DNA from: Centroberyx gerrardi
Lineage: Eukaryota > Chordata > Actinopteri > Beryciformes > Berycidae
NCBI RefSeq assembly: GCF_048128805.1
Contig: NC_135997.1
Span: forward strand, 4,193,116 to 4,257,115
DNA length: 64,000 nucleotides
Direction of reading: 5' to 3'
Below are positions 26,601 to 63,338 of this stretch, in pieces (the first letter of the stretch is position 1; every line of letters starts with the position of its first letter). A program made the translations under genes and the position numbers. The notes under the pieces are model-generated. The model saw only the letters and a program-made list of their open reading frames with translations, had not been told where the DNA came from and made no database searches.

Positions 26601-29600
26601 AATTCAACCTTTACGCCCAAGCACAGGCCCACCACGCTAAGTACATACCTCCTACTGCATCACAGAAAAAAGATCATCCTGCATTTCGGGAACCAGCATT
26701 ATGCAGAATGTACAGTATGATCTTGCATTCCAAATAAGCTGGATGGATAATCATTTCATGTTTCTTCCTCTCCATTTTCTTGAAGGATCTATGACTTCCA
26801 GGTCAGCGGCCCCCAGAACATGACCAAAGAGTTCAGGGACGGTACTTTGGGGAAAGCTGAAGTCACTCTGAGCTGGACGCCACAGCTCAAGGACCTGCAC
26901 CGAGTCGTCCCAGTCTGTTTCACTGCAGAGACAAACGAAAGGTGTGTGTGTGTGCATGCGTGTGTGTGTAGAAATATGATCAACTTCCTGGTTGTTGCAC
27001 CATCGGCTTTGTGTCGTATTAGTAAGCTTCTTCCCTTGAATATCCTGAGGTGATCAACCAGCTCTAATAATTAAACAAAACATGCAATGGGACCTACTGA
27101 CTGTTACTCTGGTTCCTTACAGCTTCTTTGTGCTATCAGGATATTCTAAAGAGCAAATGGTGGCTAACAAATAGTTCACAACAATACACAACAATAGTTC
27201 ACCCTCTTGTTTTACATCAAAGTGAAATATCAGTATTTTAGTCAAAAATATTGATATTTCACTTTGGAGGGTTACAAAAAATTGGTTTGCAGAAGGGTTC
27301 TGCACTCTTTCACATTGTGACCCCAATTTGTGTCATGTCACGAGTCTCTTATAAAAAAAAAGTCCAAAAAAAGTGAAAATGTTTCAATATCCTGGGTCTG
27401 TTCTCTATAATATATTCACACACCTGGCTTTTTCTGTCACAACAACATAACAACAATAACAATAACGAAAATAATATCTTCTTGCATTGGCTGTCATGTA
27501 GCCTTTACGCCTTCTGTTTTGTTGTCATTCAGCCAATCAGAGATGAGGTGTGTCGTCGTCACGGTGACCAAATCATCTGACATTAAAGGTTTGCTGAATC
27601 ATTTCTCATTTTTGGAACATTACAAAGATGTATGTGATGCCACCTTATGAGCGTTGCGACAAGTCATATTTCATCTACTGGTTTGGTTTAACGCTTGATC
27701 AAACTGAGAGCATATTCCATATTCATAAAGAACACAAGCACTCGTCAAATAATCATACTTCATATGTTTTAATACTTCCATTTCCATTTACTAATAACAT
27801 CACAGACAGCTTAATTCTCAGTATTAATGAAAATGTTACAATTTTCCTTCAACTCTGACAAACCGGGTTCAATTCCCAACTCAGTTTTCTACTGAGAGTG
27901 AGGTTTTAATTTTTAGAAGAAGTTTTTATTTAACCATGACTAAAACCTTAACCCTAACCAAATAGTTTCAGCTGCCTAAACTTTTTAAACCCTAACCTTA
28001 ACCAAAGTTGCTTTAACCATTAGCTAACATTTTCACATAACAAACAGGTGAAAATGGCGTGTCCAATTCCTGCTATTGTCACATAATCCAATTGTGGTGG
28101 AGGAACTTAATCCTCGTATAATTCGAGTTTGTGCTCATTTAATGAAATCTGATGAGACTGTGTTGTACTGATGGATATGCAGTTGATACGCAGTGTGATC
28201 TACAGGTAATGCCATAGTAACGTGCTCGGCCAACCGGATGACAGTGGCCCTTGAGAAAGCTTCCATGCCTGACATCGACAAGAACTGGCTCAAGCTGAGA
28301 GACCCGACCTGCTCTCTCACTTCCAACGACACTTACATCATGGGCACCATGTCGTTCAGCACCTGTGGCACCAAAATCGAGGTATGAGAAGACGATGAAG
28401 AGGAAAAACGATTCGATTTTTTCACCTATGTGATACAGATATTATTTATGGCAGTCTAAAAATTTACCCACTGAGCAATTTTACATTGATTAGCAGTTTA
28501 AAAGACATCTAAATGGCTATAGACATCTACACTACAGATGCAAAATTAGGCTACATAAGGTTTATAAGTGAAAGTTTAGTAGACTTCTACATCTTTTGGG
28601 GTAAATGACAAAAATGTGGCATTACCTTGTACATATGGACTTCACTGGTGCACATTTTTTATATTTACAGTTCTTTATGCATTGTTGAAACATGCAATAA
28701 TGTATTTAGTGCTTAGTCTAAAACTTGGCTATACATAGTCCATGATACTGGGAATGAAACTGAAATGAGAAAGAAGAATTTAGGGATCTTATTTTTTTGA
28801 TAGCAATGAAAGGATTAGATATATATAATTTTCATTGTATAGGTGAAAACAGTAAAGCTGTCAGGGTAAGCCCAAAATTCCTTTCCTTTTTCATTTCACT
28901 TATTGAAGGGTTTTCTCCCGCCTCTATTTGTCTTGTACAGGATAAAGGTGACTTTATTCTGTTCAAGAATGAGATCCAGTCCTTCGAGCTGCCCAACACA
29001 GTTATAACCCGGAGGAGGAGGGTTAATATCGACTTCTCTTGCCAGTTCCCCAAGACCATGAGCATCTCAAGTTACTACCAGCTCCACAAGTCTGACTATG
29101 TTTTCACTGAGTCCAGCTTCGGCAGCTTTGGCTACACTTTTGAGATCTTCTCCGATTCCAATTTTACCAGCAAGGTACCGGCCAGTGCATATCCAGTGGA
29201 AGTCAAGCTGCTGGATATGATTTATATGGGCATTGAGGCTGAATCTGAGCTACCGGATGTGACTCTGTTTGTGGAGTCATGCAAAGCCACTCCTGATGAC
29301 AATCCTGAGGGCAGCCTCTTCTACAGCCTCATCGATAACGGGTGAGTGCTGAGCTGAACACGTAGAGAAATATGTGAAATATGTGAGCAAACATGTAAAT
29401 CACAGCTTTCTAAAATGGTGACCAAAAAATGAAAAATGAAAGAACTTGGGTCTTTGATATACCTTGTGTGTAATGTATTGAAATTCATTTTTGTTAAAGG
29501 TGCAACACGGATGAGACTGTTAAAGTCCACTCATCTGATCCAAAGTCATTCAAGTTTGAGGTTCAATCCTTCAAATTTACTGGCAACTATGACCAGGTAA

Positions 29601-30838
29601 CTTTTCTTTTTATTCATTATACTAAACTAATACCAGAATATTATTTACACAGCTGGGAAGATGTGAAGTATTGTCTTAACAATGGGGAAGAGCCAAAGAA
29701 CCACAGTTTTTCTGACTAATGCCACGTTCACGTCAGATTTACTGTAATTATAACCTGCCGACTGGGAAAACCCTAATTGCAACTGGGTTACAGGGGAATT
29801 TTTTGATCTCCTGCTTGGTATCATAAATTGCGTAAGTTTGTCAACACAACATAGAGAAGCCACTGATATTGGCAGTCCAAGGTAATACAAATGAAAATTA
29901 TCAGTTATATTCACAATATAATCGAACCTACTTATGAAAATAAATATCTGCTGCAGTTAATTTATGGTTGATTTTAAATTCATAAATAAAAATGTGGATG
30001 TTCCAACAAGTTAAACACTTGAACGCTTTCAAGTTGTAGCAACAAGATGATCATCCCATTCATCTGCTTCTTCCGATATGATGTGAACGCGACATAAACG
30101 TTAGACTGAAGCCCAGTGAAAAGGGCAAGGGGTAAGGAGCTATAATATTAAAGACTAGCACTCTTGCTACTAACTGAAAAAATTGAATCTAGCCATACTA
30201 GTATCTAGGTTAGCTAGTTAGCTTAGCTGCGAAGTCCAAACTAGCCATATGTAAGCTAACTAGCTAGCCTGCTGACCTTCCAACATCATGAACGCCATGG
30301 TCATGAGTGAAAAGAAGTCATTTCCATTTATATTTTTATTTATATTATATTTTGACCACAAGTTTCTTATTTGACATTCAAGTTTGCCAGTTAGCCAACT
30401 TGCGCTCGAAAACTGTGATTCTTTCGCTCCGCCCACTGAGGTTTAACTCAACCGATGAATTACCCAGAAGAAATGTTTGCAGACCTAAAACTCTGATCTG
30501 CCACCGCTTAACGCCTTCCCACGCCATCTGCAGGTGTACATCACCTGCTCCGTCATCCTGTGTGAGACCGGGAACCCCGTCTCCAGATGTGCCCAAGGCT
30601 GCCTGAGCAGTCCAGGACGCAGACGCAAGCGAGCGCTGTCCGTGGAGACGGCCAGCCACTACATCAGCCAGGGGCCCCTGCGGCTGGTCCGGCCGGCCGT
30701 GCCCAACGCAGCTGTGGATGAGCTGCCGATGCCGAGGCAGGCTGATCAGCCCATCGCAGGTTAATATGTGCATCTTCTGTCACTTCCTCTTGTTCTGTAC
30801 GTTCACTTTTGTTGAACACTGATGAATAAGTGAGTCTT

Positions 30839-41910: not shown

Positions 41911-43087
41911 ATGGCTTCTCTCACACTGCTGCTGCAGCTGCTGGTTCTGGTCTCCAGTGTGTCTGCATGGAGACGAACGCACAGTTATACGTACTATGGA
42001 GGATCAGTGACCTTCACCCCAAGAGGCCTGAATTCAGATGGGCTATATGAGGTAGGTTCAAGTTAAACTTTAAGCAATGGCAGGTAATGTTGTTCTAATG
42101 AGAGAGGAGATGAAGTGTTTTGTGGATGTTGCATCATCCTCATGAATTTAAAAGAACAATACTCTTCTTTCTGTGGGTTCTACACCATCCCATGCTTGAT
42201 GGGAAAATAATGATGTGATTTAGAGTTACAGCCCATTTACTTCTGTCTACGTCTAGCTTACATTTCTCACAATCGTTTTGCCATGCATGCAGGAGGAAAA
42301 CGAGCGCTGATATCTCCAACTGTACTGACTGTGTGCAGACACCAGCAGAATGGACATGAACCTAGACCATTGACACTAATGTAAAAAAAACACCGGTATT
42401 ATCCTTTAATATCTCAGACTGTTGGTACAGTCACTGGTGTCACATCCAGGGTATCTCCAATCCAACTGTATTTCATTGCATTACCTAAAAGAAAAGTATT
42501 CCAATTGCAGATACATGTTAAAAATTTGAGGATTACTTCTTTTAAAGTGAAAGCCAGAAACTGTGTGAGAAAGTGTCGCACAAAAGAAAATTTGTATGCA
42601 GACTTGAACTTTGTAATTTATCACGTTTTGTTATCTGTATACCTCAAATATGGCAATCTGAAAGTAATCAGAATGCATCAGTGAGTTTGGGATAATCTCT
42701 TACGTCACTGATTATTACAGTTTTGATGAGGTAACTAGTAACTGGAATGGAGTACATTTTTAAAGTAATCTGCCCCAAATCTCCTGACATTGAATTCAGT
42801 TTGTTTTTGTGTGGCTATATGAAATAAAGTTAAAGACAATTTAAATTGATTTACACCATGTCAAAAAATGTTTTTTGAGTTTAACATTTTCTTCAAATGT
42901 AGCTGTTCAGTAGTTACTTCAACAGCTGCTTCAGTAGCTGCTTCAAACCTATAGCAGTATTTAATCAGCACAAAATGGGTAGCAAATATGGCTACCAGTA
43001 ACAATGCTGACCAATGGTTTGATGTATAAACTCCAAGAATGACATGGGAAACAACTGTAAATGGGGGTAAATATTTATTCTGTTTTC

Positions 43088-43123
<36 letters not shown>

Positions 43124-46100
43124 GCGTGTGTGCCTGACTTATTTGTAGGTGGAGCTTCGCAACAAGCAAACCCATAAGTACTGCTACCAGAATGGCTTCA
43201 CTTGTTCCAGTGGTAACTGTGGGACTGAGACCAGTACTACAACTGCAACCATTGCCAGGAATTCCTATGGTCACTACTGGTGCCAGTATGAGATTGTTAT
43301 GACAAGAAAGCTTCACAGCAACCGGCCCTTTGAGATCAGGTGAGAAATTATTGGTGAGATGAGAGAAGAAAGGGAAATGACCAATGTTTATTTTTTTATT
43401 TTTTTCATAAATCAACAACAATAATTTTGACGACAACAAATGTTTCATGCATAGCATTTCTAAAGAAATGGTTACAAACAGCTTTACAATAAACAAAATA
43501 ATTTTCTGATGACACTGTGTGAGCAGTTGGGTTGCAACTATTAACCATGCGCCATGCTCAGAATGCTCAGGATCATCCGCATTCGGAGGGTTTCATTTCC
43601 CAACCTGACAGTACCATCAAACCTGCATCATGGCCTTCTTCATTGTGTGGCAACCATGTACCAATTTGTCTGCCCTTGTTTTACATGTGGATTTTTTTCT
43701 TTTTTTTTTTTCTTGAACGAATGAATGGATGAGTTTGTATTGTAATACATGGCCTCGGAAGCAAAGGAAAACAGAAAATGCCCACCTTTGAAGATTCCTT
43801 TACTAAATTGGGTTGAGAAATATATACAGATATAAATAGCTACTGTTGAATATTCACAATGTGACAGTGGAAATCTAAACAACATACTGTACATGATATA
43901 AAACATAGCAAAGTCTACATGGTGGAGGAAGTGCTTGATAATTAACAACTCCAGGAGGTCAAAGTTGATCCAATCCTGCAACAAATTAAAAAACAAGATC
44001 ACAAACATATAGTTTATACATATGCATATAGACAATTTATCATGTCATGGCTAAGAACAACATGGTTAAAAGCGATTTGTTATGGAGTTGGAAGCTACCT
44101 GATGAGTACTGTCTGTGCCACAACAAAGATTCAACAAGTGGTGAAAGATATTTATCTCATTTGCCAAAAGAAGGCCATAACTTCTGCCAACTTTTCAGAA
44201 GAACAAGAGGAAAATAGGAGGTAGAAATGGTCAAAATGATATACTGTAGACTTTAGGTCTTCCATTGGTTACCTTTCAGAAGGATATGGGATTATGGAGA
44301 AAACAGATATTTAAATTTACAGTAAATATACAGAATGTGAAAATTCAGTTGTCATACTCACATTAAGAAGACTACAGAAGGACATATGTATTAAAAGTGT
44401 CTAGCCATGTAGATGTGCTTTGAAAAAAAATACACACCCTATCAAAATATTCATTTACAGTTCCCCTCTCATTTACAAATGTAGGTAACACATGTACAGA
44501 ATGTGCCAATTCGGATATGTGCATAGCTGTCTCCTAGCAAGAAAACTGTAGTTACATTAGAAGTGTGTAACATTAACATTATCTTACATGTATTTTTCCA
44601 AACAGACATCCCAACTACCATAATAATTACCATGGCGCGGGATACTGGATACCAAACAACAGATACAGCTACAGTTATTGGATAATGACAACTCATGTGG
44701 ACCTGGGAACCCGATCTGATACTGGTGAATCTAACAGATCTCCCATCACAACTAGTGTACCTCTTCTCCGGTAATGACCAGAATCATCAATTCTTGTTTT
44801 GGGCTGTTGCAGTAAAGTGTCACCTCACATGTGAAGTTTAACATGAAACTAGTAAAAACTCCAAGTATTGGTTTCACAGACATGAATTAGCTTTGCACAG
44901 GCACAATTCTGCGCAGCCCGTCTGGTGAAATCTTAATAAAATAATACGTGGCCATGACTTAGTAACGTGTGGGAACAGGATCTTAATGGGTGGCCACGAC
45001 TTATGTCAGGTACACATTACACAACTTCTAGTTGGAGAGTATGTCAATTTTAACGACCGCAGTTTCTGAATCTCGCTGGGTGTCAGAGTTGACGACTAGG
45101 CATCACAAGGGATGACTATTGATTCCAAATCTGGTATTGCGCTGCAAGAGTACGTTGACCTTGCAGTACTCTTGCATGCAATCACCGTGAGGCACCGTGT
45201 GCAAGTACAAACAAACAAAATGGCCACGACTTAGAAATGCGTGGAAACGACTTATTAAAGTGTGGGAACAAGATCATTGTGGTCTGTTAGCAGAAGGCGG
45301 GATCGTCTGTTGTCCAAGTAGGAGTTGGAGTTAGCCTATGCTGATGGTCATGCAGTGGAAATTAATTCAAAAATAAAAGGAAATCAATTCAAACCTCTCC
45401 ATGTTTGCAGTATCCTGTATGGAGCCCCTGAGGCCACATTCTAGGTTCTCATTGTCTTAATGATCTTGTTCCCACACGTTACTAAGTCATGGCCACACAT
45501 TCATTTTATTAACAAGATATGTCACCAGACGGGCTTCGTACAATTAGGGTGCTTTGCCCTGTCACTGACAATGTACCCTCTGAAAATATGGTGATTCCTG
45601 TATTTTTTTGGCTTATACTTTTTGTTAATAATATCTATGCTTAATATTAGACAGCATATTCATGAAAAATCTACGTAAAAACAGGACCCTATTCCTCTTC
45701 AGTAATTATTTTAGGTGTTATTGCCATTTCTTTTGCAAAAGCCCTTGTCTAGCTCTTTGTGATGATGCTCTTTGTCATAGATTCCTACTTTAACTTTAAA
45801 AGTTAAAGTTTTAACTTTAACAAAAATACTTAAATATAAATTGAGTAGTTGTTCCTGATTCAACTGGTTCCCACTTTACAGAATAACCCGGAACTGTCCA
45901 AGGACATACAGTCTGGCAGTTTTTGATCCTGATGGTGATCAGGTCAGATGCAGGTATGGAGCATCCACCGAATCTGAGTGCAGGCTGTGCTACCAACCTG
46001 ACGGTTTCTCTTTAGATCCGGTAAGAGATAATGCAAAATCCTTACACTTACTTTGCAAAATGCGAACATAGGAAGTGGAAAGTGGGAAGCTGTCACATGA

Positions 46101-48120
46101 ACTTCAGTATAGAGCTGAAATTTGCCTTGTTTAGAGAAGAGGTTGTGGACAGGGTAATGCATGAATATTTCGTAAACCCCTTTCCTAACTAATAGGAATT
46201 CAGTTCTTTTACTACCAAAAGGCATTTCTGCTTAGTTCTAGATGTAATAAAGTAATCAACAAGATTGTATAATCTGTATCCACAGTATAGAAAGGCTTTG
46301 ATTGGTCAGTTAAGGTTCAACAACGTGTTGCAATGTCCACTTGAACTTGATTTGATATCAGGGATTGCATTATTGCTCCAATTAAACACCTTTCCACCCC
46401 TGCCCAGCTAAGATTAAAAATGAAAGGCATTAAGGCAACATAGATCCGCACTGAAATGGTGTTAATGCTCAATCTCAAAAAGGCACAGTTAATGGTCCCC
46501 AAGAAGAAAACAACTGGATGTGATACCAACATGACACAATTTTAACAGCTATTGCAGCCTTTGTTATTTGTGTGTCAAAAATAATGTTCCTTATTCTTTT
46601 CATCAGAATTCCTGCTCCCTGTCATATACCACCAGTAGTCGAATTGGACTTAGTGGATTTGAGCTAGTAGTGGAGGACTTCCCTAGAAAACGCATCACTG
46701 TCTCCTACTCTGATGGATCCTTCACCTTGAAGAATCCCCTTTCAGTAGGAAGGCGTAAACGTGACACAAACAATACAACCTCATCATTTTCATTGAGCAC
46801 CACTACCGCCGCAACAACGACCACAGCCGCAAGCACAGGTGGAGCAACAACGACCACAGCCGCAAGCACAGGTGGAGCAACAACGACCACAGCCGCAAGC
46901 ACAGATGGAGCAACAACGACCACAGCTGGAGCAACGACCACAGGTGGAGCAACAACGACCACAGCTGGAGCAACAATGAGCACAGGTGGAGCAACAACGA
47001 CCACAGCTGGAGCAACAACGACCACAGCTGGAGCAACAATGAGCACAGGTGAAGCAACAACGACCACAGGTGGAGCAACAACGACCACAGCTGGAGCAAC
47101 AACGACCACAGCTGGAGCAACAACGACCACAGCTGGAGCAACAACGACCACAGCTGGAGCAACAATGAGCACAGGTGAAGCAACAACGACCACAGGTGGA
47201 GCAACGACCACAGGTGGATCAACAACGACCACAGGTGGATCAACAACGACCACAGGTGGATCAACAACGACCACAGGTGGAGCAACGACCACAGCTGGAG
47301 CAACAACAACCACAGGTGGAGCAACGACCACAGGTGGAGCAACAACGACCACAGGTGGAGCAACGACCACAGGTGGAGCAACAACGACCACAGGTGGATC
47401 AACAACGACCACAGGTGGAGCAACAACGACCACAGCTGGAGCAACAACGACCACAGGTGGAGCAACGACCACAGCTGGAGCAACAACGACCACAGGTGGA
47501 GCAACAACGACCACAACTAGATCAACAACGACCACAGGTGGAGCAACAACGACCACAGGTGGGGCAACGACCACAGGTGGAGCAACAACGACCACAGGTA
47601 GATCAACAACGACCACAGGTAGATCAACAACGACCACAGGTGGAGCAACGACCACAGGTGGAGCAACAACGACCACAGGTGGAGCAACAACGACCACAGG
47701 TAGATCAACAACGACCACAGGTAGATCAACAACGACCACAGGTGGAGCAACAACGACCACAGGTAGATCAACAACGACCACAGGTGGAGCAACGACCACA
47801 GGTGGAGCAACAACGACCACAGGTGGAGCAACAACCACAGCTGCACCAACAACGACCACAGGTGGATCAACAACGACCACAGCTGCACCAACAACAACCA
47901 CAACCACACCACCACCAACAACAACCACACCACCAACAACAACCACAACAACAACAACAACAACAACAACAACCACAGCTGCACCAACGACCACAACCAC
48001 CTCTCACCTCTACCGTCCATCAATTGCTGCTTTAAGCAAGATTCCTCTGCAGTTCTCTATTTATGGTTTGTCAGCAATTTTTCCATTGTAGCATTTATTT
48101 TTTTTTATTTCATTTTCACT

Positions 48121-48161
<41 letters not shown>

Positions 48162-51100
48162 TTTTTGACTTTCAGTTGACTCACACTACGCCCCTTCATG
48201 TCTCGATGGTGATTATTTCCCCATTTTTCTGTCTCCAACTCCAAGTAATGGAGTGAATCTTCCTGCCTTTGTCAACAACACACTCGAAATCAAAGTCAGA
48301 GCCATAGCAAAATACGCCACGTAAGGAAATTCCACATTAAAATCTTGTTATAATTTTGCTGTTTTTTGTTATGTATGAGTTAAATAGAAGAATCATGTCC
48401 CAGTGCATCATTCGGAACGTACAGTATCATTTTTCATAGTATTAGCCAGTAGTTCAATATACTTTAGATGGATTTTAACAGAATTAGCTTGCAGAATATT
48501 GCTGTCCTTGTTGACCGGGGCAAGTTTATGAAAACATTGTTCCTCTTGTAGGATCTACGACCTCCTTGTCATTGGACCAAAGGGCATTTCAAAGCAGAGG
48601 ACCTCCACAGAAGAATATACCATAAAATGGACACCAGCGGATAATGAAGTGGATGACCATTTCCCCATTTGCTTTTATTTTGAGGCATTAGATAGGTGAG
48701 CTTCACATAAACTATCCAGTTTATTCCAAATCACATTAACCAGATGACCAGTTGATACCAATATGCAAAAATCTTCACAGGATGTTGTATTTGGCTTCTG
48801 CTTACATATTTTTGTATTTTCATGTTAAATGTGTTACATGTAGCATTTTTAAACAACAATATATCATTGTCAAATTAATTGTTTGTGCCAGTTGTTTTTG
48901 CCTGTTTTGTGCCATAAAGCAATCCAGCAAATTTCCTGCAAAACAATGGCAAACAATGTAAAATACATTGTAAAGGCTGCCATTCTTCTCAGTGGATGGT
49001 TTTGTTTGTTTATGGTAATTAGACTAATATCTCAAACTTAATGTGTTAATAATTTATTAATGTTAAAATGCTACATGGAGGACCTTTAACAGTTCACTGG
49101 TGAAACAGTTTGTACCATTTGAACTCCATCCCCCCAGACGTATGAGTGTTTGGAATAATTACCTTTGCCAAGTAGGTTATTTTTATGCCTGTTAGTTTGT
49201 CTGTCAGCATTAGGGCTGCCCCCTAATAGTCGACCAAACGTTAGTCGATGAGAAGAGTCTTGGTCGACCAAGTTTTCATTGGTCAGTTAGTCGCAGGGAA
49301 AACCCCCCCCCAAAAAAACAAACTCTCAAACTTCATTCGGGAGCTGCGCCTTGTGGTTAAAACAGTTATTAGACCAGGATTGCAAGGACGTGCAGTGTCG
49401 GATTTTGTGCAATTTGGACACACAACACGTTCAATATTAATAAACTTTGAATAAACAAGCGGACAGCGCTCTGTGCAGCAGCGGGGCTCAAAGCAAGCGA
49501 CTAATAGCCTACGCCTATTGTATGTTTTTTTTGGGTGAACCAGAGTGTATTTCACCGGTGTTTCTGACCGCTAGAAGCCGCGACTTGGGTGTGTTTTTTC
49601 CCGTGAACCAGAGTGTATTTCACCGGTGTTTCTGACCGCTAGAAGCCGCGACTTGGGTGTGTTTTTTCAAAAAAAAAATTTTTTTTTAAATAATTAAATG
49701 AATATCATAAACGTGCTACGACTAGTCGACGAATGGCTTGAACTAACGACTACTAGTCGACTAGGAAAATCTTTGGTCGGGGGCAGCCCTAGTCAGCATA
49801 ATATCTCAAAAACTTATGAACGTGTTTCCATGCAATGTGGAATTTACAATTTGACAGATAGATCTTGGGCCAAGGAACAATTGATTAACTTTTGGTGGTG
49901 ATCCAGATCTGGGATTTCCACCATTAGACAATTATCGTTTTTTAACCAAAACCATGAAACTGTAACTGTAGCCATTCAGTCTGAATATCAGGCTAGAAGC
50001 TAATGGACATAGACACTTGATTCCAGATCCTAACGGTATGGTTGCATGATCAAGAATTCAGTTTAATTTATGGTGATGGGAATGATGTCTGTGGGCGTAA
50101 CAGCAAGTTGGAGAATTGTTCAGCGTTGGCGGTGGTTTGCACTCTCTGAGTGCCTTCTAGTTTTTTAGTATTCAGATTTGAGACCATTGATTTCCAGATA
50201 ATTGACATTACAGACTATATTGAGGGCAACTTAATTGAATAATTTACCACCTTTAATGTTCTATTCAAGACACTACAGAGTCTATCATTCAGAGCTGCGC
50301 TGTGTGATTGCTGATGTTGGACACCATGGTGAGTTGATACACTTTTAACTCCTCAGAAAATTAGCAAAGCATCCCGGTGAAACAAATGCTAGGTTTCATG
50401 AATAATTTAATGCTCAATAGTTTGTTTTGACTATTGGATATTGGCTGTTCTTGTAGGTGCTGAAATGGGATGTTTTAGGAAAGAGGGACACATGCAGAGT
50501 TATGGACATTTTTAACCCTCATGTACAGTAGCTGCACAAGTTAACACAGAACATATTCTTAGGGTTATATCCCGCTGAATGAAACTGAAAAATATTCACA
50601 TATTCATATATGTTTTGGCATGAGATCTGCTTTTCCTTGACTAGACTGAGGTGATCTACCGGTGCCAGTTAAGCAGATTCAGTGAAAGCAGGATGACTAT
50701 CCATAACCAGTGACATTTTCCCCTTGTTTCTTACCTGCCCATGTTCTGTGTGCCTCAACATATGATCGACAGCTTTTTCAAAATAATTTAAAAATCAAAG
50801 AATAGCTATTAATGTTTAATATAAATGTTCTGGAAACACATTTTCCCAGCGATCATTCTGGAGAAGGGTTCTGCACTCAATCAAATTTCAAGTCATCGCT
50901 ATTATGTTGTGCGTCACACTTGAGTCCAAGTCACATGTCTCAAGTCTTCACCTCTGTTCACACATCATCACAACGGAACAGAAATAAATGTTACGTACTG
51001 TATCTCACACTTTTCAGAGACCGTTGTACGCTGCAATGAAACCACGATGACAGTGGAAGTGGCGAAGAGCTACCTCATCAGACGCAACGAGGACAACTTA

Positions 51101-52956
51101 CACCTGAAAGACTTCAACGATCCTGCCTGCAACCTGACAAAACGCTCCAACTACACCCACCTGGTCGCCATCATGTCGCTGAACACCTGTGGGACCACAC
51201 TGGAGGTACAGCACACTAAACTAACACAGTGTACTCTGTTTGCAGGTGTACATGGCAAGGCAAGGCTTACCAAAATTATGGCTGAGAAAGGATCACTTTT
51301 GTTCAGTTGTCAACAGCCGTAGACAATCTTAGTTCTTTGCAGATTTTGGGCCCTAAGACCTGGTTTCTTAAAGTTTATGTACAAAGTTAGGGTAGATCAT
51401 TGTTTGGAGGAGCTTCTAAAAAGCATCACTATAAATGTAATAGTGACAAGGCTAGTGAACCTTCTCTGCAGCACAAAAATCATGTATCAACATTCAACAT
51501 TCATGAAAGATGAAAACAATACACTTTGCTAAGAGATTTAATGGTAGAATTGTATAGTTTTAAGTATAATCAGCATTCTAATATCCACAAATAAGACACT
51601 GATTTGAGCAAGCCAGTGGGGAACAACCTGCTTTGCCATCATTACAGCTGAGCCAATTTTGGGACATAACATACATAATATCCTGTACATTCTGAAATTT
51701 CACTATTTAGCATATTTGACATGGTATAAGGTACATTAGCGTCCAACACCAAGAGAAGTCAACCTTGGTGTAGGACGTAAATTAGAACAGGATGCATTTT
51801 GGTTTAATCATGGCTAATGATGTGAATAACTCAGCTATAAACTGACAAAACTGTTATGGAAACTGAGCTTTGTCTATTACAATACACAACTGAAAATAAT
51901 GCTAGTAATAATGGTGATAGTAATGTCAGCTTGGTTGTAAATGTTAGCTAGTTGATAAATCTGAGCTGAAAAGTCTGGTCACCTAAAAATATCTTTCTGG
52001 TAATATTTTCCAGTGCAACATTAAAAAGGGCGTTTGTGTTAAGGTGTTTTTCGCTGGGCTTTATATAATGTGCTATTTCTTATCAAAGCAATGAATCAAT
52101 CAATAAATCCACCAGCCGAGTGTTAGAATTGTAATTCACGCTAGCAACATCTATTGCTTCCTCTCAAAGTTACTCTTCCCAGTCTCAAAAGTCCAGGGCT
52201 TTCCAACATGATAAATTAATATTTTCTTTCACTTTTAGGAAGATGAAGACAACCTTGTCTTCAAGAATGAGATCACATCTGCTGACCCAACTGAAATTAT
52301 TTCCAGGCAACATGATGTTGAGATCGCCTTTTCATGTGTCTATCCCAAACGGGCCAACCTGACGCTGGGATTCAGACACAAAAACCCATATGCCTTTACA
52401 GAGAGAGGCTTTGGTTCTTTCAGCTTTCAGTTTGAATTCTTTGAGAGCAAGAGGTTCAGGAAACAGAAGGAGGCCAGCACTTACCCAGTGGAGGTGTACC
52501 TGAAACAGATGATCTTCTTGGAGATTGATGCAACTACCTCCATCCCCAACACAGAGCTGTTTGTGGAGTCCTGCAAGGCAACTCCCTATGATAACCCAAA
52601 CTCTCGCATCACCTACACCATCATTGAAAATGGGTAGGTGTACGCAGTGATGAAGCCAAGGGCGGATATTTCATTTCACTGTTGGGGGGGACAATAAACA
52701 GAAACATTTCTCAAGAGCAATTCCTGAAGGGGACACCAAAGGTGCCGCCAAAAGTACTGTTGTATTAAATGTATATAGAGGTCCATTATGAAACATTTCC
52801 ATAAGCACTTCATTCCTTTCTTCTGAAGATTTTATCAAATTGCCTTTGATATTACTGGGGTCTTTCTACTTGGCGTTTCGGTGCACTGAAAAATGATCGG
52901 ATGTCTGTTTTTCTTTTCTCTGCCATTTTAACTGACTGGCTGACAAATAGACACAC

Positions 52957-53001
<45 letters not shown>

Positions 53002-56000
53002 CATGCAGGTTATTTACAGTAGTAGGTGAGATGCAACACCCATTAACTGAACTAAAGCTAATATATGCCTAATTAGATTTAGTTTTCCCGAAAAAGCAGA
53101 TCTCTAATGTTTTGCTGTCAATGTGTAAAAGTCCAGAACGCTATGAAGCCTGCCAGAAACTTACTTCAGGGTCTTTTTTAAGAATTAAGTCTTCATTTAT
53201 TTCCAAAATTATAAACAAAATTACATAGTGGCAGCCATTTTACATGCAGTAAGAAAAAAAGAATATACTTAGAACCTAATTACGTAGGGTAAGTTCATCT
53301 TAAATAGCCTATTATATTATAGAAATATTACTGTTACCATCTACAAAAGATAATTTTGGTATGAAAACCCGCATTTTAATTTAACCAAGTATCCTGTATC
53401 ATAAATACATGTCTGGCATTTGTAACAAACCAAACCGCTTGAAAATCGGTCGAAAATTCAGTGAGTTATGATGATTTTAATTGTGGATAGACCTCCTGCC
53501 TCCATAGATGTACATGCATTAGGAGACGCGGCTGCTCCGTACCAACACGCTGACGCACAAGATTCAACCGCGAGGTAATGGAGCGAACAAAATGTAGTCT
53601 GGTTACAATTGTGAATGTGTTTTATTCTATTGAGTGGTAGAAGTAAAGAAAAATGTCTGACACATACTTTGTTTTAAGTTAACCTTTGCGAAGCAGCTAC
53701 TTACTGGAGGTCAGCCACCACTGACACACTTCCAGAGATCCTCCACAGACACTCGTACCGAGGGCTAATGTGTGTGTGTGTGGGTTCGGGGAGTCAGGTA
53801 GGCAGTGGACCAAACCACTGTCAGGCATATGAGAAGGGGGGGTTATGTTAGTTATGTTTACAATGATATATTGAGGGGGACAACTCTCTGTTTTTCCCAG
53901 GAAGGGGGGGTCCGGACCCCCCTGTCCCCCCCGTAATTTCCGCCCATGGATGAAGCATCCAATTCCTTGTGTGTTACATGTATTAGACATCACTATATGT
54001 GCACATATATTATTCCCTTAGATTGTGTCCAGTGTAGTTATTATGAGGAATGCTAGTATTTCTATTTCTAAACCATTATTACTGTATTATTACAGGTGTG
54101 TGAGGGACAACACAGTGCAAATTTACCCTGGCTCCAAGTCTCAGTTCAGATTTGGAATGGAGGCTTTTGAATTCATTGGTGCTCATGAGGAGGTAAAGTG
54201 AAACATACCACCATGTTGTTTACAGTGAGATGTGTAAATGTACTTTTGGTTTAGTTAAAGTGATGGGCCATCACAGCATGTCCCCAGCTGTGCCCAGGTA
54301 ATCTGAGGAGGGAGTGACTTCAGCCCACTGTGTCCGTAGGTCTACATCACCTGCTCAGTCGTCATGTGTGAGACTGGGGTTCCTGGGACCAGGTGCACTC
54401 AGGGCTGCATCAGGTCCAACTCAGGGAACCAGCTCCACAAAAGGGAAGCTATCGCCGAGACTTCCATGCACTCCATTTCCCAGGGACCTTTGCATCTGAT
54501 TAAAACTTCTGACAGCCAAGGTGAGTGTGCATATACACTACCACTCAAAAGTTTGGACACACCTAATTGAATGTACTGTGTTTTTCATTCTCTTAAAGCC
54601 AATTTGATCTAAAGGCTTATGCTTAAATGCTTGAAATTAGTTTCTTAGACAAATATAAATAGTGAAGTTGATCCTATGTATGAATTTCTTTCCAAAGCCT
54701 TTGCCTTTCCTTCAATGCAAAGGGCGGCTACTTTAAAGAAACGAAAATATAAGATAGTTTTGATTTGTTTAACACTTTTTTGGTCACTGCATAATTCCAT
54801 TTATGTTATTTCATAGTTTTGATGGCTTTATTGTTATTCTAAAAGTGTTCAAAATAGTAAAAATAAAGAAAATGTGGTGTGTCCAAACATTTGACTGGTT
54901 GTGTATACACATACAGTATATCAATGAAATCAAAGTTTATTTGTCAAGCTCCCATATATGTACTGTATATAAAGTCAGTTTGCCCACTGCATTGTGCTTA
55001 TGTACATTCATTTGTCAGTGCGTATGTTTACCAGCAGGGTGGTAAATCTGTTTAACCCAGACATTGCCACATTATTGTGGGTGGAAAATGCAAAATGCTC
55101 TCTCACAGTTGTTGAGTTGCATGCGGACCATGCATCCATGGCACAGTCATTTTGCACTATAGTTCTGCTTCTGACTGTTCTTAACTGAATAATTGCATCA
55201 GGTTGCAGCCAAGACTGTCTGTTCAGTGACACAGAGACTTTTTGACAAGTTCTTGGCCTCATGGAGTAGATTCTTTTAAATTATAGGGATACTAGCGAGA
55301 GGCAAGCATATTATTGTACATCTCTTTAGGCACAGATGTAGTAATAATAATGCACCCAATGTTGGACTGATGTCTAAATTCAATAAGTTAAGTTACACTG
55401 TGATACATCAAACCATGGCCTGTTGCTCCCACAGCAAACCGTAGTAGCATAGCATATAGCAGAGCTGGGAGTGAGCCAAACAACGCTGGGATTAACATTT
55501 TCATCTGTCCATAAAAAGACTCATCTGCACAAAAACATGCGTGTCTCATAATAAACAAGCATAATGCAGTGGGGAGATCACAGAAGATGTGCAATCACCA
55601 TGGCATAACTCAAGAACTCTGAGAAATCTTTATGTTCCTCTCCAAATTAATTGGACAATGTGCATATTCACATATATATATTAAAATGTTAATGTACAGA
55701 TTCACCACACATTTGATCTGACCATGTAGTTTGTAAATGTCCACATCAACCGATCAATACGTATTACGCACTTTTACAGTTTTCCCACATCATATATATA
55801 ATTGACTGATTGTTATTTGGTTTTGTTGGATCTGAATTCCAGTCTGGCCTCTAACACACTTCTCTTTTTTTTTGTATTTCTTTATGTTTGTATTTCCCTT
55901 TTAGCCTCTGGACCAAGCCTGCATGTGGGCATGAACCTAATGTTCATTGTCGGCTGCCTCCTGGTGTGTGGAGTGGTGGTCTACCGGTCCAGGAGGTCCA

Positions 56001-56041
56001 AAGCTAAATACCAACCCCTGCCAAACTCTGACTCCAACTGA
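41911..56041 (+). CDS. ZP-domain type I membrane protein with mucin-like repeat, paralogue B
   Basis: Thirteen exons: 41911-42051, 43149-43339, 44606-44770, 45882-46020, 46607-48065, 48176-48320, 48552-48695, 50279-50328, 51018-51205, 52239-52633, 54096-54192, 54340-54520 and 55905-56041. They total 3432 nt (1143 aa). Exon 8 may instead start at 50270 (+9 nt, in frame). Order: signal peptide (1 to about 20); Cys-rich module with DLGTRSDTG and DPDGDQVRCRYG (about 21-260); RRKR (261-264); mucin-like Thr-rich repeat (about 276-673); linker; ZP domain (about 812-1061, with FVESCKATPYDNP, CETGVPGTRCTQGC); LHKR (1070-1073); transmembrane helix (about 1107-1125); basic tail. Exon sizes and phases track ZP-A one to one except exon 5 (1459 versus 199 nt). 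The probable role is a glycosylated cell-surface or shed matrix protein, by inference from the architecture. The family is not named here. Confidence 0.88.
42199..42415. mobile_element. MITE-like fragment in ZP-B intron 1
   Basis: It shares GATTTAGAGTTACAGCCCAT and ACTGACTGTGTGCAGACACC with the ZP-A intron 5 element (25726-26370), but is internally shorter. Confidence 0.55.
43089..43132. repeat. (TG)n microsatellite next to the ZP-B exon 2 acceptor
   Basis: A TG run ending about 16 bases before the exon 2 acceptor TTTGTAG, in place of an ordinary polypyrimidine tract. Confidence 0.9.
44908..45545. mobile_element. Non-autonomous DNA transposon with long inverted ends, ZP-B intron 3
   Basis: The left end (GCAGCCCGTCTGGTGA, then GTGGCCATGACTTAGTAACG and TGTGGGAACA) recurs inverted at the right end (TGTTCCCACACGTTACTAAG, GTCATGGCCAC, TCACCAGACGGGC). 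The arms are roughly 85 bp. The interior repeats GTGGCCACGACTTA-type units. No transposase frame is seen. Confidence 0.8.
46751..46762 (+). other. Furin-type site RRKR directly upstream of the mucin repeat
   Basis: AGG CGT AAA CGT codes RRKR at residues 261-264, followed by D and then an Asn/Thr/Ser-rich lead-in to the repeat. It matches the R-X-K/R-R consensus. ZP-A has no such site at the equivalent place. Confidence 0.7.
46797..47990 (+). repeat. In-frame minisatellite coding a Thr-rich mucin-like domain
   Basis: Units of 21 bp (GGAGCAACAACGACCACAGGT, coding GATTTTG) alternate with 18-bp units (GATTTG). Variants carry AGC/GCC (Ala), GGATCA (Ser), AGATCA (Arg-Ser) or ATGAGC (Met-Ser). There are roughly fifty units by eye, ending in a Thr/Pro-rich ACA/ACC run. 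All indels are multiples of three, so the frame is kept. Dense Thr suggests O-glycosylation. The lack of stops in other frames and on the other strand produces long spurious open frames. Confidence 0.95.
48123..48160. repeat. (CT)n microsatellite acting as a polypyrimidine tract
   Basis: A pure CT run 15 bases before the exon 6 acceptor of ZP-B, in a very short intron (48066-48175). Confidence 0.9.
49140..50170 (+). repeat. Old dispersed repeat, plus copy, split by a hAT element
   Basis: Flanks such as CTGTTAGTTTGTCTGTCAGC and AATATCTCAAAAACTTATG, GGTGGTGATCCAGATCTGGG, and GTTCAGCGTTGGCGGTGGTT belong to one unit that also occurs reversed at 35160-35600. The hAT element 49211-49791 sits inside it. 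Confidence 0.7.
49211..49791. mobile_element. hAT-type non-autonomous element (581 bp)
   Basis: The ends TAGGGCTGCCCC and GGGGGCAGCCCTA are bracketed by a perfect 8-bp target duplication GTCAGCAT (49203-49210 and 49792-49799). Inside, a 68-bp unit is tandemly duplicated (49535-49602 and 49603-49669). ACTAGTCGACTA-type words lie near both ends. No transposase remains. Confidence 0.92.
52657..53948. mobile_element. hAT-type non-autonomous element (1292 bp) in ZP-B intron 10
   Basis: The terminal repeats CAAGGGCGGATATTTC and GTAATTTCCGCCCATG are flanked by a perfect 8-bp duplication GATGAAGC (52649-52656 and 53949-53956). It begins only about 24 bases after the exon 10 donor. Subterminal G-runs (GGGGGGGAC) mirror the C-runs at the right end. 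It carries the (CA)n tract 52958-53000 and no transposase frame. Confidence 0.9.
52958..53000. repeat. (CA)n microsatellite inside the hAT element
   Basis: A CA run of about 43 bases, carried within the 52657-53948 element. Confidence 0.9.
54536..54903. mobile_element. Tc1-like MITE, copy 1 (ZP-B intron 12)
   Basis: It begins CACTACCACTCAAAAGTTTG and ends with the complement (TTTGACTGGTTGTG), flanked by TA on both sides. It starts 16 bases after the exon 12 donor. The interior is nearly identical to 56806-57107 but keeps about 65 more bases. Confidence 0.9.
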
Positions 56042-56805: not shown

Positions 56806-57107
56806 CACTACCAGTCAAAAGTCTGGACACACCTGATTGAATGTATGTTTTTCATTATCTTAAAGCCATTTTGATCTAAAGGCTTATGCTTAAATGCTTG
56901 AAATTTGTTTCTTAGACAAATATAAATAGTGAAGTTGATCCTATGTATGAATTTCTTTCCAAAGCCTTTGCCTTTCCATCAAGGCAAAGGGCAACTACTT
57001 TAAAGAATCTAAAATATAAGATAGTTTTGATTTGTTTAACACTGCATAATGTGGAAAATAGTAAAAATAAAGAAAAATGCATGTGTCCAAACTTTTGACT
57101 GGTAGTG
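56806..57107. mobile_element. Tc1-like MITE, copy 2 (ZP-B 3' UTR)
   Basis: It begins CACTACCAGTCAAAAGTCTG and ends CAAACTTTTGACTGGTAGTG, with TA on both sides. It has the same orientation as copy 1 and lies inside the predicted 3' UTR. Confidence 0.92.
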
Positions 57108-57505
57108 TATGTATATTGCTTCTTCTCATTGCCATTAAGAACTGCACTAGGCAGCGGGAGAGAAAGGTCAGAATCTGAATCTGCATATCAAAATGTGAAG
57201 CGGGACACGCCTCGACATAAGATGATGATATCCGTCACCTGAAGTGCGCACACTGCAGGACACTAATCCCACGTGCAACTCCAGCGTTTGATTCACATAT
57301 TTAAAAACTGAACTTAGCATCATTGCACGGCACTTAAGTGAAGTCTGAATCGGGCCGAACATGATTACTTTAACATTAATTCTAAGTCTTTATGTCAAGC
57401 TTCACTTCAAATGTCTGTTGTGTTGGGATAATCACCTGGTAACTGAAATAGAAAACATGTTATGCTACAGTTTATAAAGACAACAGGGAAACGTCTCTGA
57501 AGAAC

Positions 57506-59659: not shown

Positions 59660-60115
59660 GTCTGACCTCATTACATACCTAGATGGCTTCATTGGTATTT
59701 TGTATTTACAAAGCCATCATAGGGCAAGTCCCTGGTTATTTAAATTTCCTTTTTATTTGTTGTTCTCAGAACTTACCACTTGCCACTGTTCCTCGCCCTT
59801 TCATGGAATTTGGGAAGATGACTTTTAGTTATTATGCTTCATGGTCCTGGAATCAGCTCCAGAAAGATGCAAATCTGGATCACTTCATCCCTCTGGGTGA
59901 TTTTAAAAGTCTAATGCAGTCCTTAAAAACTGAGGTTTGCAGATGTTTTACTTGAGAGTGTATAATGTGTAACTTGTTGTATTGTGGTTTTGTGTTGTAT
60001 TTTACGTATATTGTAATATCTGCTTACAGTGCATGGTTAGCCAGGGCTCCCTTGAAAAAGAGATAGACATTTCAATGGGACCCACCTGGTTAAATAAGAG
60101 AAATAAAAACAAAAC
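59660..60115 (+). pseudogene. Rex1-type LINE: reverse transcriptase C-terminal remnant and 3' end
   Basis: The frame 59683-59955 reads like the tail of a LINE polymerase protein (IYKAIIGQVPGYL, VPRPFMEFGKMTFSYYASWSWNQLQ cut to its key words, ending with a FKSLMQSLKTEV-type stretch). It is followed by AGCCAGGGCTCCCTTGAAAA, AATGGGACCCACCTGG and TAAATAAGAGAAATAAAAAC, a typical Rex1/Babar 3' end. It is 5'-truncated and inactive. Confidence 0.7.
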
Positions 60116-60409
60116 AAAACTGTGTAGTGGTCTGCAGCTACAAATTTTTGAACAATCAAATTGTGTATTTTTTACTGCTTTGGTGTTGCCTTTTTGAACA
60201 TTACATCATTTTGTTGAGTAAGCATAGCATCATTTTTGCGATGTTTATTCCTGTAGTCTTTCAAATAAAAATTGTAGAGAACTGGGAAACCTTGAATGGC
60301 TGTAATCAACTTCTCGTCCATTTTGCTCTTGCTTGGGGAGATGTGAGACCCACCAGGAGAGGAGGGCCAGAGTCTGTTAACATCTTCATCCAATATGCCA
60401 AAAAGTCCT

Positions 60410-61135
60410 GTCCATCACCTCTGTCCTTTAAGGAATACCACAGTTCATTCTGGTCGGTGCACTCTTATTCTTCCCATTTTGATTATTGTAACGCTCTTTT
60501 TACCTGTTTGAATAAAACTTCTTTGGACCGTCTCCAAACTGTCCAAAATGCAGCTGCTCGGCTTTTAACTAGAAACAAGAAATCACATATTACGCCAATC
60601 TTATCCTCTCTGCACTGGCTTCCAATAAAATTCCGGATCCATTTTAAAGTACTGGTCCTAACCTTTAGAGCCTTGCATGGTCAAACACCTGAGTATATTG
60701 CTGACCTTCTCCTCCCTTACACGACCAGTCGGGCTCTTACGTCTTCCGAACAAAAATTACTGGACGTCCCTCGAACCCGTTTAAAAACCCGAGGTGACCG
60801 TGCATTTCAAGTTGTTGCACCCAATTTGTGGAATGCCCTCCCCTTATCGTTGCGATCCTTAGACTCTTGTGACATCTTTAAAAAGCAGCTGAAAACGTTT
60901 TTATTCAGACAGGCTTTTGGTTAGCCTGCGGTCATTTGTTCCATTTGATTTTATTTTGCTCTTATTGGTTTTATTTCCTTGTCTGTGTTTGGAACTTTTG
61001 TCCTTTATACTGTACTTGTATATGTGTCTGTTCCTGTTTTTGTCTGTTGTTGCTGGTATTTTAATTTGTAGGCACTTGTGATTCTGTATCTGTGAAAGGT
61101 GCTATACAAATAAACTTTACTTACTTACTTACTCA
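60410..61135 (+). pseudogene. L2/CR1-type LINE: 5'-truncated 3' end
   Basis: The frame ending at 60924 carries the conserved C-terminus of L2-like LINE polymerase proteins: FDYCNALF, LQTVQNAAARLLT, SLHWLPIKFRI, FKVLVLTFRALHG, APNLWNALPLSLR. The 3' end reads GTGCTATACAAATAAACTTTA and finishes in a (CTTA)n repeat at about 61112-61131, as expected for this clade. Only the last part of the protein survives. Confidence 0.88.
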
Positions 61136-63197: not shown

Positions 63198-63338
63198 ATG
63201 GCTTCTGTCACACTGCTGCTGCAGCTGCTGGTTCTGGTCTCCAGTGTGTCTGCATGGCGTTACCGAAATAATTATGTGTACTATGGGGGATCAGTGACCT
63301 TCACCCCAAAAGGCCAGAATTCAGATGGGACATACGAG
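63198..63338 (+). CDS. ZP-domain protein, paralogue C (exon 1 only, cut by window end)
   Basis: The 141-nt first exon starts at an ATG in GGACCATGG context and ends at a GTAAGT donor, exactly the length of ZP-B exon 1. The 47 residues open with MASVTLLLQLLVLVSSVSAW (signal peptide) and continue with YYGGSVTFTPKGQNSDGTYE, differing from ZP-B at only a few places. The start of intron 1 is also alike (CAAGTTAAACTTTA), as is a block near 63690-63770 (AATCAGCACAAAATGAG, TGCTGATCAATGGTTTGAT). The rest of the gene lies to the right of the window, so whether it has a mucin repeat is unknown. Confidence 0.85.

Follow-up and report, generated by a model that had tools for sequence, protein, structure and literature searches.

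Three different repeats at one point of exon 5 in tandem ZP-domain genes, and a coding minisatellite that may build a mucin-like stalk in ZP-B

Two neighbouring fish genes that match exon by exon, except for one exon that is swollen by a Thr-rich repeat in one of them, raise the question of how such a repeat comes to sit inside an existing gene and what it adds to the protein. The stretch analysed, C1:4193116-4257115 of a searchable 779-Mb genome and 64 kb in length, is called the window here. Exon-by-exon reconstruction of the two genes, ZP-A and ZP-B, yields 13 coding exons for each, with GT/AG borders, matching phases and no internal stop (Table 1). Outside exon 5 the largest length gap between them is 72 nt, in exon 13, so that the remaining twelve exons differ only modestly, as a preliminary description of this DNA had stated, and its lengths for exon 5, 1459 nt in ZP-B against 199 nt in ZP-A, are recovered from both rebuilt genes. 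An Rfam scan of the window gave no match, and searches of prokaryote and viral collections gave no relative. Among the surroundings of the genes are a 68-bp unit in 2.0 copies with 100% matches in intron 7 of ZP-B (49535-49668), in a stretch whose ends, by eye, resemble a transposon inverted repeat; a 276-codon open frame (60094-60924) that by eye resembles the end of a LINE reverse transcriptase and has no Pfam match at E<=0.1; and a dispersed element, again judged by eye, with two similar copies (near ACTACCA[GC]TCAAAAGT) at 54530-54910 in intron 12 and at 56810-57110 downstream of ZP-B.

Table 1. Positions of the genes, exons, repeats and motifs discussed; positions are those of the window unless preceded by C1.
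Feature	Position	Strand	Basis or remark
ZP-A gene, 13 exons, 748 aa	20680-31151	+	Reconstruction from the window
ZP-A exon 5, 199 nt	25383-25581	+	Short linker NESSSSNPPPFCQ where the insert would sit
RRRKR after the ZP domain of ZP-A, candidate cleavage site	30618-30632	+	Motif match only
ZP-B gene, 13 coding exons, 1146 aa	41911-56041	+	Reconstruction; Pfam ZP-N and ZP-C domains
ZP-B exons 1-4	41911-42051, 43149-43339, 44606-44770, 45882-46020	+	
ZP-B exons 5-8	46607-48065, 48176-48320, 48552-48695, 50270-50328	+	
ZP-B exons 9-13	51018-51205, 52239-52633, 54096-54192, 54340-54520, 55905-56041	+	
ZP-B exon 5, 1459 nt	46607-48065	+	Array flanked by conserved N-terminal part and LSKIPLQFS stretch
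RRKR, furin-type R-X-K/R-R motif directly ahead of the array	46751-46762	+	Motif match
Thr-rich mucin-like segment, 409 codons	46775-48001	+	Residue count
36 CAG|GT donor-like sites in the array	46838-47861	+	All in exon-5 donor phase
Minisatellite, regular part, 21-/18-bp units	46900-47902	+	Repeat search and unit parsing
3' tail, Pro-containing and poly-Thr units (AAPTTTTTTPPPTTTTPP...)	47889-48000	+	Repeat search and unit parsing
ZP-B intron 5, 110 nt	48066-48175	+	Weak donor ATG|GTTTGT; (CT)18.5 run
ZP-B counterpart of the post-ZP site, QLHKR	54430-54444	+	Without R-X-K/R-R
ZP-C exon 1, sole part of ZP-C inside the window	63198-63338	+	
ZP-C whole gene	C1:4256313-4266257		Mostly past the window end
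ZP-D whole gene	C1:4274950-4282868		Entirely past the window end
ZP-D exon 5	C1:4277571-4278933		Trp-rich mucin-like repeat; WWWW in several edge units

The Thr-rich segment of ZP-B contains 226 T, 77 G, 63 A, 21 S and 8 P among its 409 residues, and the array that encodes it was parsed into 55 units, of which 39 are 21 bp long, 11 are 18 bp and two are 12 bp, with one each of 24, 33 and 96 bp, the 33-bp unit beginning at 46811 ahead of the regular part. These figures uphold the preliminary account of an 18/21-bp repeat coding about 400 Thr, Gly and Ala residues, and TRF scores the array at 1460 (threshold 50) with a period of 21 and 49.2 copies. The commonest unit is GGT GGA GCA ACA ACG ACC ACA, and the 48 core units are highly uniform, with substitutions at 9 of 21 positions and one codon missing in 10 of the 48; the units of the 3' tail are probably older. 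An open frame through the array is weak evidence of coding, because stop-free units of 18 or 21 bp stay open in several frames. The stronger argument for coding is that the flanking exons are homologous and that a matching insert is found in two sister genes; the array is real and, on all the indirect signs that the sequence offers, coding. Unit types are segregated along it, 11 GCT-type units all preceding 6 AGA-type units (p 0.00016, for classes picked after the order had been seen). Block duplication was considered as a mode of recent growth and rejected, the longest repeated run of units being 3, a length reached by 812 of 1000 shuffles, and identical neighbours numbering 7 where shuffles average 6.0, which is no excess. 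CpG content was dropped as a clock because the observed/expected value of the array (0.58) falls between those of the other ZP-B exons (0.35) and of the ZP-A exons (0.62).

A genome search with exon 10 of ZP-B returned four matches, namely ZP-A, ZP-B and two genes downstream, ZP-C (97% identity in this exon) and ZP-D (52%). Each of the two resolves into 13 exons with the phases of ZP-A and ZP-B and no internal stop, and they encode 922 and 1114 aa, respectively. Exon 5 measures 787 nt in ZP-C and 1363 nt in ZP-D, and the Thr-rich repeats of B, C and D lie between homologous flanks at the same point of this exon. The preliminary description had taken the array to be specific to ZP-B and had proposed exon 5 of ZP-C as a comparison; ZP-C itself turns out to hold a Thr-rich array, as does ZP-D, and the claim of specificity falls. 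Because these arrays occupy an identical site, the gain of the insert is most likely older than ZP-B. The three arrays are differently built. That of ZP-C, of 190 residues, consists chiefly of the heptads TTTT-APP, TTTT-FPP and TTTT-ASP, and that of ZP-D, of 382 residues including 53 Trp, contains a unit of 72 bp, in 9.2 copies with 98% matches, that encodes 24 residues with WWW, NPPWWWGHRTSSTYPTTTSPPTTT. A genome search with three copies of the ZP-D unit gave five matches at E<=0.001, none of them outside the ZP-D array, and no Pfam family matched exon 5 of ZP-C or ZP-D. Among the tandem genes ZP-A is the most distant, with 36-38% identity to B, C and D, compared with 50% between B and D and 86% between B and C.

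The array lies within an N-terminal module of about 320 residues, extracellular in position and encoded by exons 2-8 (21628-27588 in ZP-A, 43149-50328 in ZP-B), between ...EDFPRKRITVSYSDG... and LSKIPLQFS. The module found no relative in the PDB and no convincing match in Pfam, where five families, each matching one of six members at E 0.0068-0.13, were treated as chance. Genome-wide, relatives were sought with exon 4 of ZP-D (7 matches at E<=1) and exon 10 of ZP-D (5 matches), four matches in each search being the cluster genes. The new loci are two on C23 (C23a and C23b), one at C1:6.11 Mb (C1x) and a ZP gene on C15, and complete or partial copies of the module occur at seven places in the genome. 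The exon-4 match of C1x reaches an E of only 0.26, but ZP exons and further module exons come after it. The C23 loci (C23:2138000-2157999 and 3807500-3827499) carry the N-terminal module, with no convincing ZP exon in the 20 kb read of each; in C23b exon 8 runs on into a long Thr-rich repeat (LTTTTTTPTAATTGQNSTSTLSTTTP), and in C1x a Thr run (TTPAPTTTAVITTAAAATTTTT) at C1:6123200-6123330 stands right behind the ZP part.

In these new module carriers exon 5 is bordered by splice sites and free of any array, at 178 nt in C23a, 178 nt in C23b and 151 nt in C1x, the last of which was absent from the first scan and is a weak profile match (E 0.04), called from its position, its splice borders and the motif CMLSF...LVLMVED...PLSSVPV. 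A genome search with exon 5 of C23b gave six matches and no copy beyond those already known. A short exon 5 (151-199 nt) is therefore found in ZP-A, C23a, C23b and C1x, that is, in four of the seven module copies in which exon 5 was located, and for this reason the short exon is probably the ancestral form. The proposal that a mucin domain grew de novo within an existing extracellular protein thus keeps its core, in that growth took place within an exon of a ZP gene and the short form looks ancestral, and loses its restriction to ZP-B.

We consider it fairly probable that the insert is an in-frame coding minisatellite, acquired a single time ahead of the B/C/D split and subject to fast turnover since, which adds a mucin-like stalk of about 400 residues to a ZP protein. 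A single gain in the ancestor of the three genes is the simplest and most likely reading, although the trees do not settle it. The best module tree lacks a B+C+D clade, and forcing one costs 0.27 log units (AU p 0.43), while a grouping of D with C23, at a cost of 0.44 log units (p 0.38), is equally allowed; C1x was excluded from the tree used for these tests, a first tree with C1x having been discarded after long branches met. A tree of the ZP part places B, C and D on one side of a branch, with weak support (61/79) and two very long outgroup branches. The openness of the trees on the placement of D, and the ZP-D unit, which resembles those of B and C only in Thr/Pro richness, count against a single gain and in favour of separate acquisitions in a linker that tolerates inserts, one by the ancestor of B and C and one by D, whose Trp-rich 72-bp repeat would then be unrelated to the heptads. 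The Thr-rich stretches that two relatives carry at other points, C23b behind exon 8 and C1x behind its ZP part, also speak for separate gains, which we nevertheless judge unlikely, as B, C and D agree in exon, in insert point, in the R-X-K/R-R motif ahead of the insert and in a PL.V flank. An array ancestral to the whole family and later lost from ZP-A and the other short copies is improbable: the Ser/Pro-rich linker of ZP-A, NESSSSNPPP, could be a remnant, but several losses would be required to leave A, C1x and both C23 genes short. Growth in ZP-B alone, after its split from all paralogues, was rejected for the array as a whole once ZP-C and ZP-D were examined, and is scarcely credible in view of the arrays at the same site in these genes and of the Thr core, period and 5' edge that B and C have in common; it holds just for the Gly/Ala unit chemistry, which is absent from C and D.

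The comparison of B with C indicates how a unit has changed since the gain. Common to the two arrays are the 21-bp period, a 12-nt Thr core (ACA ACG ACC ACA) and the 5' edge STTTAATTTTAA, whereas the spacer reads GCC CCA CCA or TTC CCA CCA in C and GGT GGA GCA in B. Between the consensus units, with the APP unit standing for C, the five differences are all confined to the nine spacer sites, leaving the 12 Thr sites unchanged (Fisher p 0.006); inside the B array, variable sites make up 3 of 12 positions in Thr codons and 6 of 9 in the spacer, which is not significant (p 0.09). The 3' tail of the B array contains AAP and PPP units resembling those of ZP-C, suggesting that the Gly-type unit of B is a later take-over. 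The passage from the C to the B spacer takes five substitutions, or one in-place 8-nt inversion plus one substitution, and inversion explains only 133 of 30618 (0.43%) random five-substitution spacer variants equally well. Spacer inversion and template switching are both reported for yeast coding DNA (PMC8604942). Micro-inversion is kept as a side idea only, because it was noticed post hoc and because a stepwise path from AAP through AGA to GGA, by three C-to-G changes, is available; in the repeats on C19, AAA and AGA units stand one C-to-G-type change apart, which counts against any need for an inversion.

Outside the array, B and C differ with a dS of 0.121 and a dN of 0.089 (736 codons). 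Exons 9-11 are near-identical (94.7-98.2% of nucleotides; window 51018-54192 against L005:7838-8784), which may reflect gene conversion or strong constraint, and exons 1-5 are only 77-91% identical. Summed over exons 1-5, changes amount to 96.6/660.4 nonsynonymous and 33.4/203.6 synonymous, with dN about equal to dS, and dN/dS of single exons ranges from well below 1 to above 1. These sums, the 224 codons that differ between B and C in exon 5 and the nonsynonymous character of seven of the nine variable sites within the B units would fit a mutational by-product, that is, a neutral and unstable minisatellite tolerated in a fast-evolving linker. Such a by-product would be compatible with the other readings, but no Thr codon differs between the consensus units of B and C and the frame is intact in all three arrays, although unit lengths divisible by three would suffice for the latter, and we find it doubtful.

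Another part of the array's effect could lie in RNA. A donor matrix trained on 46 donors of the four genes, exon 5 of B and C excluded, places the exon-5 donor of ZP-B second weakest among 48 donors and below every one of the 36 donor-like sites inside the array, and a second donor matrix also put all of these sites above this donor; exon 5 of ZP-C has no CAG|GT site, and that of ZP-D has two. Because the 36 sites are in phase, shortened in-frame ZP-B isoforms are possible: splicing from the CAG|GT of the GGT-type units to exon 6 would leave 21-362 array residues and omit the LSKIPLQFSIY stretch. Splicing of this kind could strip much of the array from the mRNA, which counts against the stalk. 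A partial role of the array in RNA, again compatible with the other readings, seems to us rather unlikely, however, since the weak donor type also occurs in C (ATG|GTTCGA), where it has no competitors and is maybe good enough, since all but one of the in-array sites lack G at +5, since the matrix derives from only 46 sites, and since agreement in phase follows from the unit length and has a chance of one third.

At the protein level, Pfam identifies ZP-N and ZP-C domains in ZP-B (E 3.3e-15 and 1.1e-28) and in ZP-A (E 9.3e-14 and 4e-29), and a scan of these two whole proteins at E<=1 gave only these domains, with neither VWD nor SEA. By sequence search, the best PDB relatives of the ZP part of ZP-A are GP2 and uromodulin, which are the nearest solved structures for that part only, their N-terminal parts being without a match. 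Defining features of ZP-domain proteins are a membrane anchor at the C-terminus and a basic cleavage site downstream of the ZP domain. ZP-B begins with a hydrophobic segment and has another such stretch close to its C-terminus, and the post-ZP site reads RRRKR in ZP-A, QRRKR in ZP-C and RRKR in ZP-D, with only HKR in ZP-B. A further R-X-K/R-R motif precedes the array in all three array genes (RRKR in B, RNKR in C, RGRR in D) and in none of the four short copies, and is best read as a candidate cleavage site at the base of the stalk.

The tandem repeats are high in Ser plus Thr (60% in B, 59% in C, 44% in D), as expected of a PTS-type mucin domain, and in ZP-B the excess of Thr over Ser and the density of potential sites agree, by counts, with criteria given for mucin domains (PMC9209528). 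The array is also confined to a single large exon, as are the PTS domains of previously described mucins according to one account, which excepts chicken Muc13 (PMC1552070). Pro, at 21.6% in C and 17.5% in D, makes up only 2.0% of the B array, which is low for a PTS-type domain and argues against that assignment for B. On balance, ZP-B is best read as an extracellular ZP protein with a putative mucin-like stalk and a predicted cleavage site at its base.

The proposed sequence of events begins with a short linker between two conserved stretches of the unnamed N-terminal module, a linker that is still short in ZP-A and in three remoter copies, and into which the insert would have been gained once, in the ancestor that ZP-B, ZP-C and ZP-D share. 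Rapid turnover, with gain and loss of length by whole units, would then have given each sister gene a private unit, the Thr4 core being retained in B and C. In ZP-B the minisatellite would encode a stalk of about 400 residues on a membrane-anchored ZP-domain protein, whose Thr clusters, probably O-glycosylated, would stand out as a hydrated and stiff brush. Cleavage of the furin type at RRKR/RNKR/RGRR, where the stalk begins, may free the N-terminal part, or disulfides may retain it, and the ZP domain would polymerise the protein into a surface layer. A more elaborate version treats the linker as a recurrent nursery of coding minisatellites, in which one furin-flanked gain was followed by private chemistries (Ala/Pro, Gly/Ala, Trp/Pro), and in which an 8-nt micro-inversion in ZP-B, GCCCCACC to GGTGGGGC, replaced Ala-Pro-Pro by Gly-Gly-Ala without loss of frame and seeded the 36 in-phase donor-like sites, so that stalk length became adjustable by splicing; as a whole this is a long shot.

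The kind of event, a mucin repeat growing within an existing gene, is already known. A review describes such 'mucinization' by exonic VNTRs (Pajic et al. 2022) and names proline-rich proteins as recurrent precursors (PMC12776774). ZP-B resembles the cases described there in that an in-frame Thr-rich repeat expands within the gene of an extracellular protein, and departs from them in its host, a membrane protein that combines a ZP domain with an unnamed N-terminal module, in the presence of three different units at one site in three tandem sisters, and in being nearly free of Pro. The Thr-Ala-Ala tripeptides of fish antifreeze glycoproteins, treated in the same review, are likewise a short Thr-rich coding repeat, but ZP-B has heptads, TTTT+GGA, and hexads. 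In C. elegans, LET-653 is described as a ZP-domain glycoprotein with a Pro/Thr/Ser-rich mucin-like stretch, insufficient for function, and a furin consensus site (PMC4970718). It shares with ZP-B the combination of ZP domain, mucin-like part and furin-type motif; as described, however, its mucin-like linker lies between ZP-N and ZP-C domains and is splice-variable, whereas that of ZP-B lies upstream of ZP-N in one large exon. Classical mucins with VWD or SEA domains also carry Thr-rich tandem repeats in one large exon, and differ from ZP-A and ZP-B in these domains.

Thr-rich open frames of up to 4229 codons at about 24.38-24.40 Mb on C19 and about 11.56-11.64 Mb on C3 presumably belong to giant mucins. 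Exon shuffling from these was rejected as a source of the array, seven 10-kb stretches read from parts of these loci containing no convincing family exon and giving two matches to family exons, both at E about 0.02 and both in repeats. Their repeats are TTTT-A[AP]P-like, with a commonest Thr codon order unlike that of B and C; convergence suffices to explain the likeness. A literature search for fish ZP genes with a mucin array gave, among the papers listed, nothing on this family, with most subscription journals outside its reach, and is weak evidence of novelty. Several features stand out as unusual: a single site that holds three differently built repeats, a basic motif that is conserved, a repeat with Trp triplets in ZP-D and, in ZP-B, donor-like sites that are all in phase.

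The window alone implied an oddity of one gene, and the cluster points to a repeated process: the exon-5 linker looks like a place where mucin-like stalks grow and change rapidly. Of seven related exon copies in one genome, three carry a repeat and four lack one, and together they make up a compact natural series for the origin of mucin-like stalks. Since each of the three repeats is differently built, it can be asked what selection keeps, perhaps the Thr core, and what it lets vary, and the same series allows one to ask whether a coding repeat tunes splicing.
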